A program made the translations under genes and the position numbers. Shown here one piece after another: positions 26,606 to 63,805 of a stretch of DNA of 64,000 nt (positions are counted from its first letter, which is position 1; the number at the start of each line of letters is the position of its first letter). Origin of the DNA: Erysipelotrichaceae bacterium (GTDB lineage Bacteria > Bacillota_I > Bacilli_A > Erysipelotrichales > Erysipelotrichaceae); NCBI GenBank assembly GCA_017473265.1, contig JAFULQ010000017.1, positions 1 through 64,000 of the forward strand. The letters run 5' to 3'. The notes beneath the pieces are model-generated. The model worked only from the letters and a program-made list of their open reading frames with translations. It was not told where the DNA came from and did not search any database.

Positions 26606-26679
26606 GGTTCCTTAGCCAAGTGGTAAGGCAATAGACTGCAACTCTGTGATCGTCAGTTCAAATCTGACAGGAACCTCCA
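26606..26679 (+). tRNA. tRNA-Cys (GCA)
   Basis: Cloverleaf with anticodon GCA, acceptor GGTTCCT/AGGAACC, discriminator T and encoded CCA. Six bases separate it from tRNA-Leu. Confidence 0.95.
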
Positions 26680-26685
26680 ACAAAT

Positions 26686-26772
26686 GGAGATGTGGCGAAA
26701 TAGGCAGACGCAACGGACTTAAAATCCGTTGGTGGCAACACCGTGTGGGTTCAAGTCCCACCATCTCCACCA
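26686..26772 (+). tRNA. tRNA-Leu (TAA)
   Basis: 87-base class II tRNA with long variable arm, anticodon TAA, acceptor GGAGATG/CATCTCC and encoded CCA. Its last 13 bases and the following terminator recur exactly at 34228-34283. Confidence 0.95.
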
Positions 26773-58163: not shown

Positions 58164-59357
58164 ATGTTTGAAAATGAAAAAGTGAAATTAGATGTCTTGA
58201 AAAAACGTGCGTATAATTTGCGTTGGGCAGAAGTGGCGGATGGTGTGATTCCAATGACTGCTGCAGATCCTGATTATCCTGTAGCGAAAGAAATTACGGA
58301 TGCGATGATGGAGTATATCCAAGATGGATATTTTTCTTATACGCCTAAAATGGGGTTTGAGAGTTTTAAGGAAGCGATTAGTAAAGCTTTGTATGAAAGA
58401 AAAGGGGAAGATATTCCTGCTAGTCAAATTCTTCCTATTGATTCTGCGGCTAGAGCAATGGATATTATTGCGAAATCTTTCTTAAAAGCTGGGGATGAAA
58501 TGATTGTTTTTGATCCTTGTGATTATTTGTTTAGAGAAGCTTGTTTACAAGCGGGTGGTACTCCAGTCTTTTTTCCTGCGAATTTAAAAGATGGTTTGAT
58601 TGATTTATCAAAATTAGAAGAGTATATTACTCCAAAAACAAGAATGATTGGATTGTGTAATCCACATAATCCATATGGTAAGTCCTATACAAAAGAACAA
58701 TTGGATTTCTTAATGTCTTTGTGTGAAAAACATGATTTATATATCATGAATGATGAAATTTGGTCAGATATTATGTATCCTGATGCTCAATTTAATAGTA
58801 TTTATTGTTTGGGTAATGAACGTTGTGGTCGTGTATTGAGTGTATTTGGTTTCTCTAAGAGTTTTGGATTGGCTGGATTACGTATTGGATGTATGTATAC
58901 GACAAATAAAGAGTGTTTTGATAAGTTAGTAGAAACTTCTCAAGTATTAAGTACAGCTGGTGGTATTGCCTCTATTTCACAAGTAGCTGGTGAAGCGGCT
59001 TGTAGTAAGGCGTATTATTGGGTAGATGAATTTGTAAAACATTTGGTCGTGTCTAGAGATTATGCAGTAGAAGAAATTAATAAGATTCCAGGATTGAAAG
59101 TTTATAGACCAGATGGTACATATTTGTTGTATGTAGATATGAGTGCGTACCAAATGAAGGCGGTTGATTTTGTGGATTATTTAAAAGAAAAAGTGAAATT
59201 AGTCATTGTTCCTGGTGGAAAACAATATTTTGGTGATCTTTCTGAAGGGCATGTGCGTATTTGTTTTGCGACAAGTCGTGCTATTTTGGAAGAGGGATTA
59301 AAGCGTTTAAAAGAGGGTACAGCGTTATTGCGTGAAGAAAAAGGCTTAGATTTGTAA
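58164..59357 (+). CDS. PLP-dependent aminotransferase, class I/II
   Basis: A 397-aa fold-type I aminotransferase. The PLP lysine is in GFSKSFGLAGLRIG, the NPHNPYGK loop and IMNDEIWSDI hold cofactor contacts, and HVRICFATSR contains the substrate carboxylate arginine. Family members act on aspartate, aromatic or other amino acids, and PatB-type lyases are close relatives; the substrate cannot be assigned. Single gene. Ribosome site GAGGTAAT. Confidence 0.87.
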   Translation: MFENEKVKLDVLKKRAYNLRWAEVADGVIPMTAADPDYPVAKEITDAMMEYIQDGYFSYTPKMGFESFKEAISKALYERKGEDIPASQILPIDSAARAMDIIAKSFLKAGDEMIVFDPCDYLFREACLQAGGTPVFFPANLKDGLIDLSKLEEYITPKTRMIGLCNPHNPYGKSYTKEQLDFLMSLCEKHDLYIMNDEIWSDIMYPDAQFNSIYCLGNERCGRVLSVFGFSKSFGLAGLRIGCMYTTNKECFDKLVETSQVLSTAGGIASISQVAGEAACSKAYYWVDEFVKHLVVSRDYAVEEINKIPGLKVYRPDGTYLLYVDMSAYQMKAVDFVDYLKEKVKLVIVPGGKQYFGDLSEGHVRICFATSRAILEEGLKRLKEGTALLREEKGLDL

Positions 59358-59384
59358 AAAAATACGAAATATTTGTATTGTATC

Positions 59385-59413
59385 TTGAAAATCATGTGTT
59401 ACATATGTATCAT
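59385..59413 (+). promoter_or_regulatory. Promoter of the predicted small RNA
   Basis: TTGAAA, 17-base spacer, TATCAT. Transcription should start near 59420, where the first hairpin begins. Confidence 0.6.
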
Positions 59414-59419
59414 ATTTAT

Positions 59420-59490
59420 ATAGGTTGTAAAACTCCCGTTAAATTACACCTATTGCACAAGACGGTCCCCTTCGTCTTGTGCTTTTTATT
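59420..59490 (+). ncRNA. Predicted C-rich small regulatory RNA
   Basis: No open frame. Stem-loop 1: ATAGGTTGTAA (59420-59430) pairs with TTACACCTAT (59444-59453) with one bulged T, topped by AAC-TCCC-GTT so that UCCC is in the apical loop. Stem-loop 2: GCACAAGACG (59455-59464) pairs with CGTCTTGTGC (59473-59482), loop GUCCCCUU, then a T tail: an intrinsic terminator. With its own promoter this gives a transcript of about 70 bases. C-rich loops complementary to Shine-Dalgarno sequences are typical of trans-acting small RNAs in Firmicutes such as RsaE. Prediction only; no homologue recognised. Confidence 0.6.
59455..59490 (+). terminator. Strong terminator, 3' end of the predicted small RNA
   Basis: A perfect 10-bp stem with an 8-base loop and CTTTTTATTTT tail. 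It lies about 100 bases past the aminotransferase stop, farther than other terminators in this window. Confidence 0.88.
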
Positions 59491-59521
59491 TTAAAAAAAT
59501 TTAAATTTTTTAAAAAAGTTG

Positions 59522-59550
59522 TTGACATATATAAAGGGGTTTGCTATTAT
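59522..59550 (+). promoter_or_regulatory. Promoter of tRNA-Arg
   Basis: Consensus TTGACA, 17-base spacer and TATTAT, ending 14 bases before the tRNA. Confidence 0.8.
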
Positions 59551-59564
59551 ATTAGAGCACTAAT

Positions 59565-59641
<77 letters not shown>

Positions 59642-59652
59642 TTAGATAGTTC

Positions 59653-59680
59653 AAGTCCTTGAAAAAGGACTTTTTTATTT
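59653..59680 (+). terminator. Terminator after tRNA-Arg
   Basis: AAGTCCTT-GAAA-AAGGACTT with T run. Confidence 0.87.
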
Positions 59681-59724
59681 TTAATTTTACTATTACGGTG
59701 TATAATAAGTCTTGAGGTGTTTGT

Positions 59725-61849: not shown

Positions 61850-61926
61850 CGGGATGTAGCACAGCTTGGTAGTGCACCTGATTTGGGATCAGGGGGTCGC
61901 AGGTTCAAATCCTGTCATCCCGACCA
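61850..61926 (+). tRNA. tRNA-Pro (TGG)
   Basis: Acceptor CGGGATG/CATCCCG, anticodon TGG, encoded CCA. First of a four-gene cluster. Confidence 0.95.
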
Positions 61927-61929
61927 TTT

Positions 61930-62006
61930 GGCGGGATAGCTTAGCTGGTTAGAGCGCTCGGTTCATACCCGGGAGGTCGTGAGTTCGAATCTCACTCCCG
62001 CTACCA
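61930..62006 (+). tRNA. tRNA-Met (CAT), elongator type
   Basis: Anticodon CAT, acceptor GGCGGGA/TCCCGCT with a first G-T pair. It lacks the C1:A72 mismatch of initiators and resembles the Bacillus elongator tRNA-Met. Confidence 0.88.
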
Positions 62007-62046
62007 GTTTTTAAAATTTGTTTGTAGTGAATTCTAAGGAATTCTC

Positions 62047-62123
62047 GGACCCTTAGCGCAGTTGGTCAGAGCTACCGGCTCATAACCGGTTGGTCGTAGG
62101 TTCGAGTCCTACAGGGTCCACCA
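62047..62123 (+). tRNA. tRNA-Ile2 (CAT, lysidine type)
   Basis: Anticodon loop CTCATAA and acceptor GGACCCT/AGGGTCC match isoleucine tRNAs whose C34 is changed to lysidine by TilS, so it reads AUA. tRNA-Met is the alternative; the loop favours Ile2. Confidence 0.8.
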
Positions 62124-62128
62124 TATAC

Positions 62129-62219
62129 GGAGGAATACCCAAGTGGTTGAAGGGATCGGTCTTGAAAACCGACAGGTCGTGAGAGCGGCGCCTGGGTTCG
62201 AATCCCAGTTCCTCCGCCA
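62129..62219 (+). tRNA. tRNA-Ser (TGA)
   Basis: 91-base class II tRNA with long variable arm, anticodon TGA, acceptor GGAGGAA/TTCCTCC, discriminator G, encoded CCA. Confidence 0.95.
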
Positions 62220-62230
62220 TTCTAAAAATT

Positions 62231-62253
62231 AAGCCTTGTGAAAGGCTTTTTTT
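62231..62253 (+). terminator. Terminator of the four-tRNA cluster
   Basis: AAGCCTT and AAGGCTT (62231-62237 with 62242-62248) and T run. Confidence 0.85.
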
Positions 62254-62311
62254 ATTGTTAAAAATAGAAAATAGGTATATAATCACATTTGGTTTTTAGG
62301 AGAGTGAGACT

Positions 62312-63109
62312 ATGTTTAAGAAAATAGGTTTGCGTACAATTAAAACAGGTATTGCGGTAACGTTATCTATACTTGTTTCAAATATCTTACGTTTAGAATA
62401 TCCATTCTTTGTGGCTATGACATCGATTATTTCTATGGATAAGACGGCGATGAATTCTATGAAAATGGGAAGAAATCGTATTATGGGAACTTTCATTGGT
62501 GCGATTGTTGGTATTTTGTTAGCTTATGTAGATCGTGGTAATCCATTCTTATGTGGTATTGGTATTATTATCATGATTTTGATTTGTAATGCTTTGAAGT
62601 TAAATGGTTCAATTGCGATTGGCGGTATTGTTTTATTAGCGATTATGGTACATACAGATAAGACTCCAATTTTCTATGGATACAATCGTTTGTTAGATAC
62701 AATTGTGGGAGCTGGTGTTGCGTTATTTGTTAACTGTACAATTTTCCCTTATTATAATGTCAATCGTTTGGATGATATAGTTATTAAGATGTGGCATCAA
62801 TCAGATAAGATTTTAGATGCATTAAAAAATGATAAAGAAATTGATTTAAGTCAAATTCATTATGAAATGAAAGTTATCGAAAATGAATTAGATTTATATG
62901 AAAAAGAAATTTTATTAAGAAAGAAAAAAGAATTGGTGCAAAAATTAAGACGACATCATGAAATGACTCATAAATTATTATTTGAAATGGATGTTTGTCA
63001 ATCAGTTGATCGTTCTGTAAATCCTGAAGTGTTTAATTATCATTATCAACGTGTACATGCTATTTATGATAATTATATTAATGAATTACAAGCTAAATAT
63101 ATCAATTAA
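62312..63109 (+). CDS. FUSC/aromatic-acid-exporter-like membrane protein
   Basis: A 265-aa protein with four to six helices in the first 150 residues (LRTIKTGIAVTLSILVSNIL, GRNRIMGTFIGAIVGILLAY, RLLDTIVGAGVALFVN) and a charged helical cytoplasmic tail. This matches the ArAE_1/YgaE-like FUSC group of small putative exporters. Substrate unknown. Ribosome site TAGGAG. Single gene between two tRNA clusters. Confidence 0.85.
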   Translation: MFKKIGLRTIKTGIAVTLSILVSNILRLEYPFFVAMTSIISMDKTAMNSMKMGRNRIMGTFIGAIVGILLAYVDRGNPFLCGIGIIIMILICNALKLNGSIAIGGIVLLAIMVHTDKTPIFYGYNRLLDTIVGAGVALFVNCTIFPYYNVNRLDDIVIKMWHQSDKILDALKNDKEIDLSQIHYEMKVIENELDLYEKEILLRKKKELVQKLRRHHEMTHKLLFEMDVCQSVDRSVNPEVFNYHYQRVHAIYDNYINELQAKYIN

Positions 63110-63139
63110 AAGAAGAATGAAAAAATTCTTCTTTTTTTG
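63107..63139 (+). terminator. Terminator after the FUSC-like gene
   Basis: AAAAGAAGAAT and ATTCTTCTTTT pair across a short A-rich loop and run into T residues; overlaps the stop codon. Confidence 0.83.
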
Positions 63140-63242
63140 TAAAAAAATACTTGCATTATGTAATTGATTGTTGTATTATAAACGAGGTCGAAATCTTACG
63201 AAATAAATTCAAAAAAGATTTTGAAAAAAATTAAAAAAAGTG

Positions 63243-63271
63243 TTGACATGATGTTCATTACATGATATATT
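63243..63271 (+). promoter_or_regulatory. Promoter of the six-tRNA cluster
   Basis: Consensus TTGACA, 17-base spacer, TATATT with TG just upstream; about 25 bases before tRNA-Val. Confidence 0.82.
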
Positions 63272-63295
63272 ATTAAGGCACTAAACAGTGAAGAT

Positions 63296-63371
63296 GGAGG
63301 TTTAGCTCAGTTGGGAGAGCATCTGCCTTACAAGCAGAGGGTCGGCGGTTCGAGCCCGTCAACCTCCACCA
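63296..63371 (+). tRNA. tRNA-Val (TAC)
   Basis: Anticodon TAC, acceptor GGAGGTT/AACCTCC, encoded CCA. Confidence 0.96.
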
Positions 63372-63383
63372 TTTTTATGAAAT

Positions 63384-63459
63384 GCCGGATTAGCTCAATT
63401 GGCAGAGCAACTGATTTGTAATCAGTAGGTTGTAGGTTCGAGTCCTATATCCGGCACCA
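63384..63459 (+). tRNA. tRNA-Thr (TGT)
   Basis: Anticodon TGT, acceptor GCCGGAT/ATCCGGC, encoded CCA. Confidence 0.96.
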
Positions 63460-63467
63460 TTTTTTTC

Positions 63468-63552
63468 GGGGAGGTAGCGAAGAGGCTAAACGCGACTGAC
63501 TGTAACTCAGTTCCCTTTGGGTTCGACAGTTCGAATCTGTCCCTCCCCACCA
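63468..63552 (+). tRNA. tRNA-Tyr (GTA)
   Basis: 85-base class II tRNA, anticodon GTA, acceptor GGGGAGG/CCTCCCC, encoded CCA. Confidence 0.95.
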
Positions 63553-63561
63553 TTTACATGA

Positions 63562-63637
63562 TGGGGTGTAGCCAAGCGGTAAGGCACCAGACTTTGACTC
63601 TGGCATTTCCCTGGTTCGAATCCAGGCACCCCAGCCA
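63562..63637 (+). tRNA. tRNA-Gln (TTG)
   Basis: Anticodon TTG, acceptor TGGGGTG/CACCCCA, discriminator G, encoded CCA. Confidence 0.95.
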
Positions 63638-63646
63638 TTTATAACT

Positions 63647-63722
63647 GATCCCTTAGCTCAGTTGGTAGAGCATCTGACTTTTAATCAGAGGGTCGGGCGT
63701 TCGAATCGCCCAGGGATCACCA
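63647..63722 (+). tRNA. tRNA-Lys (TTT)
   Basis: Anticodon TTT, acceptor GATCCCT/AGGGATC, encoded CCA. Confidence 0.95.
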
Positions 63723-63731
63723 TTTCTTTTT

Positions 63732-63805
63732 GCGGATGTAGTTCAATGGTAGAACTTCAGCCTTCCAAGCTGACTACGCGAGTTCGATTCTCGTCATCCG
63801 CTCCA
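63732..63805 (+). tRNA. tRNA-Gly (TCC)
   Basis: Anticodon TCC, acceptor GCGGATG/CATCCGC, discriminator T, encoded CCA. Last of the six-gene cluster. Confidence 0.95.

Follow-up and report, generated by a model that had tools for sequence, protein, structure and literature searches.

A likely small RNA with two C-rich loops upstream of tRNA-Arg in a genus of Erysipelotrichaceae

Regulation by UCCC seeds that act on Shine-Dalgarno sites is established for RsaE, RoxS and RNAIII (PMC9217828, PMC6435200), and in Bacillus subtilis RoxS represses lactate permease (lutP) along with the LutABC proteins (lutABC) (PMC10433868). For the Erysipelotrichaceae, a family of gut bacteria, a literature search found no post-transcriptional regulator. 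Here we describe an element that encodes two hairpins at 59420-59482 of the window (the whole 64,000-nt stretch of DNA analysed), the second hairpin being an intrinsic terminator, and that is single-copy in the 1.8-Mb genome containing the window (G000, 29 contigs). A functional small RNA is likely, and its best explanation is probably a trans-acting RNA of about 65 nt with UCCC loops covering the Shine-Dalgarno sequences of fermentation or redox genes.

Structure and putative promoter of the element

The original prediction had placed at this locus a stand-alone, undescribed small RNA with C-rich loops and two hairpins, the second a terminator, and these parts of it were supported. Segment 59420-59490 has a folding energy of -25.1 kcal/mol, compared with -8.4 +/- 2.2 kcal/mol for shuffled sequences (z = -7.8, 0 of 200 shuffles as good), and hairpin 2 carries its 6-nt UCCCCU loop on an 11-bp stem, with TTTTTATTTT after it and a U-rich tail. 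The two hairpins (Table 1) stand only one or two unpaired nucleotides apart. A search of Rfam gave no match for the element at gathering, and the element is conserved as a separate unit. Weak Rfam matches to rli60, SSRC34_2 and RsaJ were rejected as far below cut-off and mostly on the opposite strand. The claim that both apical loops expose C-rich motifs stood for UCCC and UCCCCU themselves, the unpaired probability of which is close to 1 in both G000 and its genus-mate G003, but not for the loops as drawn. The UCCC tetraloop of hairpin 1 is closed by merely three weak pairs (AAC/GUU), and in the minimum-energy fold of the G003 homologue the entire 20-nt loop of this hairpin is open; the loop of hairpin 2 is shorter than claimed, the G and final U of 'GUCCCCUU' forming a wobble pair and UCCCCU being the exposed part.

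The predicted promoter, a putative sigma-A site, has 10 of 12 consensus matches; its TATCAT ends at 59413, 6 nt before the first hairpin, and a transcription start near 59420 is plausible from the sequence. A promoter score as good, 4-9 nt before the hairpin, was reached by 1.35% of local shuffles, and the wider region shows no excess of promoter-like sites (8 found vs 10.6 expected from shuffles). The promoter is the same in the genus-mate G001; in G003 the -35 is lost and only a -10-like TAAGAT stands at equal distance, the best promoter there reaching 7 of 12 matches, not above shuffles. No operator shared between the promoters of G000 and G003 was seen. The promoters of RsaE/RoxS are under the control of ResD/SrrA and Rex; by eye there was no clear Rex or ResD palindrome at 59358-59419. 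The transcript had also been described as having no reading frame. A TTG-initiated frame of 38 codons crosses the element (59378-59494), yet its first codon precedes the predicted transcript start, and in G001 a 1-nt insertion disrupts the frame; no conserved frame runs across the element.

Table 1. Features of the element and its downstream neighbour (window coordinates).
Feature	Position	Strand	Basis or remark
Putative sigma-A promoter TTGAAA-17-TATCAT of the small RNA	59385..59413	+	10/12 consensus matches
Hairpin 1 (AUAGGU.GUAA...UUACACCUAU), presents UCCC	59420..59453	+	Fold; homologous hairpin GUAGGUG/CACCUAU in G003
Invariant loop block AAAACUCCCGUUAA (seed 1; UCCC at 59434-59437)	59429..59442	+	Identical in G000, G001 and G003
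Hairpin 2, 11-bp intrinsic terminator stem, loop UCCCCU	59455..59482	+	Terminator scan; two double-sided pair changes in G003
Invariant block GGUCCCCUUC (seed 2; loop UCCCCU at 59466-59471)	59464..59473	+	Identical in three genomes
U-rich terminator tail	59483..59492	+	Terminator scan
Separate promoter TTGACA-17-TATTAT of the downstream tRNA-Arg, outside the small RNA	59522..59550	+	11/12 matches, TG before the -10
tRNA-Arg(ACG), conserved downstream neighbour	59565..59641	+	Same order in G001 and G003

Conservation, selection and competing readings

Homologues of the element occur in three of the four genomes searched in the genus (97% identity in G001, 82% in G003; not found in G002) and in 0 of the 311 other genomes searched in the order. 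The genus-mates match Erysipelotrichaceae metagenome-assembled genomes (RGIG7674 from water buffalo rectum, SUG1660). A covariance model of the element was searched in 272 family genomes and 315 order genomes, and its matches beyond the genus were discarded as ordinary terminators. The exact two-loop pattern, searched in a bacterial species collection, retrieved the two known homologues and seven other matches, none of them convincing (model E of at least 0.26, or unreported by the model), whilst a search of viral contigs with the same pattern found none.

The three copies fold with z values of -7.8 (G000), -7.4 (G001) and -5.6 (G003). G000 and G003 share a mean protein identity of 65% across reciprocal best hits, and in their alignment the element stands out (z = 10.4) against the 61 nt upstream, which are at chance level (z = -0.1). 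Between these two genomes the loop motifs AAAACTCCCGTTAA and GGTCCCCTTC changed in 0 of 24 columns vs 18 of 48 elsewhere (P = 1.8e-4). The original prediction had tied the element to C-runs kept in the loops and compensatory changes in the stems: the C-runs are invariant, and the terminator stem of G003 carries two double-sided changes (C-G to A-U and C-G to U-A) with all pairs kept, a signal that is abolished when the partners are slid. The covariation score was reached by 47 of 500 column shuffles and, with three sequences of which two are near-identical, does not amount to strong statistics. Hairpin 1 is kept as UAGGU/ACCUA, with its inner AAC/GUU pairs invariant. Since the loops are invariant whilst flanks and stem have changed, selection acts on the loops and not on the terminator alone.

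The neighbourhood bears on three other readings of the locus. In G000, G001 and G003 the element precedes tRNA-Arg(ACG), with murT downstream (the MurT and GatD models match the downstream genes below their curated cut-offs). Upstream in G000 and G001 lies a PatB-like aminotransferase gene (TIGR04350 best, below cut-off); it is absent in G003, where the upstream neighbour is a tRNA-Leu that has a terminator-like hairpin of its own, some 250 nt away across an unrelated spacer. The element might be only the transcription terminator of the aminotransferase, preceded by a chance hairpin and with functionless C-rich loops, as would suit its position 62 nt after the stop codon of that gene at 59357, the lack of any other terminator after the gene in the scan, and the frequency of terminator hairpins in general, the weak model matches elsewhere in the order being ordinary ones. 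We regard this as unlikely, because the element persists in G003 with a different upstream gene, a bare terminator would not freeze its loop letters whilst stem and flanks change, and hairpin 1 and its loop are conserved too.

The direct succession of aminotransferase and element in G000 and G001 would also fit a 3'-UTR-derived RNA, released by processing of the aminotransferase mRNA and working through the same seeds, but a promoter of 10 of 12 matches lies between gene and hairpin and no such gene precedes the element in G003, which leaves this reading quite improbable. Slighter still is the chance that the element controls the downstream tRNA-Arg (murT-gatD region) as a leader or attenuator: it adjoins tRNA-Arg in all three genomes, but a separate strong promoter follows the terminator, 15 nt before the tRNA in G000 (TTGCAA-17-TAATAT after the terminator in G003), and G002 has the tRNA-Arg-murT pair without the element.

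Elsewhere in the window, a dense group of ten tRNA genes (Pro, Met, Met, Ser, Val, Thr, Tyr, Gln, Lys, Gly) follows murT-gatD at 61850-63805. The tRNA-Cys/Leu pair that lies at 26606-26772 of the window is found in G003 just upstream of the element instead, and this displaced pair marks a rearrangement breakpoint between the species.

Proposed mechanism and predicted targets

For the trans-acting small RNA, blocking of Shine-Dalgarno sites would be the best-supported mechanism, by analogy of design with the described regulators; its transcription, base-pairing, targets and direction of regulation are what we infer. Transcribed independently from about 59420 and ending at its own terminator (59455-59482), the RNA of about 65 nt would use its two hairpins to hold open two C-rich seeds, AAAACUCCCGUUAA and UCCCCU. 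These would pair with G-rich Shine-Dalgarno sequences and block 30S binding, and less translation of fermentation or redox genes would follow. The most likely target would be the L-lactate permease mRNA via seed 1, with butyrate kinase via seed 2 a weaker candidate.

Pairing of both seeds was predicted against the start regions of 1455 ORFs in 1.52 Mb of G000 and 437 ORFs in 0.45 Mb of G003, about 85% and 28% of these genomes respectively. The best site of seed 1 in G000 was the start region of the L-lactate permease gene (lctP; TIGR00795 and PF02652 above cut-off), where UUAAUGGGGGUUUU in the leader UUUUAAUGGGGGUUUUUAUG gives 14 contiguous pairs (-17.5 kcal/mol). In the G003 orthologue, AUGGGGGUUU pairs over 10 nt with seed 1 (-13.4 kcal/mol), with a small co-fold gain of -3.5 kcal/mol, and lctP was not found in G001 (85% complete), though the element is present there. 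The start regions of 15 lctP-family genes from other genera, in whose genomes the order-wide model search detected no element, pair at -9.5 kcal/mol or weaker, which may reflect distance only. The lctP Shine-Dalgarno region itself, AATGGGGGTTTTT at L116:15943-15962 (minus strand; G000:C5:55943-55962), is unusual; G003 shares it, unlike the relatives from other genera. When the C-core was kept and the flanks were shuffled, a conserved target pair as good as lctP arose in 19 of 200 cases by summed energy and in 34 of 200 by the weaker member, so that lctP is put forward as a target in the form of a specific hypothesis and not as a result.

Seed 2 has its best site in the butyrate kinase start region (ACGAAGGGGATAGTT; L095:5120-5144, minus strand; -19.9 kcal/mol), a pairing that is not kept in the retrieved G003 data (0.45 Mb). 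The same start region also pairs with a second C-rich RNA of the genome (-17.0 kcal/mol). The top predicted targets comprise lactate permease, a LUD-domain protein, an iron alcohol dehydrogenase, butyrate kinase, an NADH-dependent [FeFe]-hydrogenase and a sulfide/dihydroorotate dehydrogenase-like flavoprotein. The functional coherence of this list was rejected as proof: such genes are abundant and the energies do not go beyond those of core-kept shuffles. Genome-wide, pairing strength was not enriched, core-kept flank-shuffled loops being as good in about a third of cases.

A second C-rich RNA and the described regulators

A scan of the retrieved G000 sequence for terminators with CCC loops revealed the second, unannotated C-rich RNA at G000:C20:31428-31526 (plus strand; L142:11428-11526). 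In it a CCCCC-loop hairpin is joined through a linker, UUCUAUCCCCUUAAAUU, to a terminator containing UCCCC (fold z = -7.9). This RNA is kept in all four genus genomes searched, and its core TTCTATCCCCTT is also found ahead of terminators in G198, G062 and G102, which represent three other genera. Matches of 16-mers of this core in viral contigs were set aside as probably due to chance. RF01820, the Rfam family of RsaE/RoxS, can be aligned along the whole of the second RNA but scores far below cut-off (23.9 bits for the G000 copy, 29.1 bits for that of G002). Roughly 100 nt before this RNA stands a further strong hairpin of 13 bp, followed by a T-rich tail (L142:11297-11326).

The second RNA resembles the window element in its two hairpins, its UCCCC motifs and its terminator, but it is longer (about 100 nt), has three C-motifs (UCCCC) and is more widely spread; it is probably a wider-spread C-rich regulator of the family. 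Its linker GTAAAACTTCTATCCCCTTAAATTA is similar to loop 1 of the window element, GTAAAACTCCCGTTAAATTA, in G000, where 1 of 500 shuffles did as well, but the similarity is lacking for the G003 copy (52 of 500). The window element could conceivably be a genus-specific, shortened offshoot of the second RNA (core UUCUAUCCCCUUAAAUU, distant RsaE/RoxS kin), the two regulators dividing fermentative metabolism and lactate uptake falling to the new one, though we think this doubtful.

Given two seeds frozen in evolution and a single specific predicted target (lactate permease), the short window element can be tested directly as a putative UCCC regulator not recognisably related to RsaE/RoxS, and so bears on the frequency with which the design has emerged afresh in lineages of Firmicutes. 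Among described systems it is comparable to FsrA, the iron-responsive RNA of B. subtilis, likened here by description, in which single-stranded C-rich motifs bind G-rich Shine-Dalgarno sites including that of lutA (PMC10433868). With RsaE/RoxS (RF01820; Staphylococcaceae, Bacillaceae) it shares hairpin-exposed UCCC/UCCCC seeds and its own terminator, and its predicted targets in lactate and fermentation metabolism parallel the lowering of lutP/lutABC by RoxS (PMC10433868); it differs in being about 65 nt long with two seeds and no long single-stranded linker carrying a AUCCCCUU seed, whereas RsaE/RoxS has a duplicated UCCCC seed, one copy of which lies in such a linker between hairpins. RF01820 (gathering 79 bits) gave no match in the window at gathering, none at 59200-59700 at E up to 10 and, in a fast genome scan, nothing in G000 at E up to 1. 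The parallel to RoxS is one of function only because the RsaE/RoxS family of Rfam does not match, and the comparison with RsaE made in the original prediction thus holds for design and possible targets but not as homology. RNAIII of Staphylococcus aureus, which belongs to the agr system, is long and built of many hairpins. Its UCCC seeds likewise cover Shine-Dalgarno sites (PMC9217828), whilst the window element has only two hairpins in about 65 nt. We place the window element in the UCCC functional class as a probable new member; its sequence shows no detectable kinship to RsaE.
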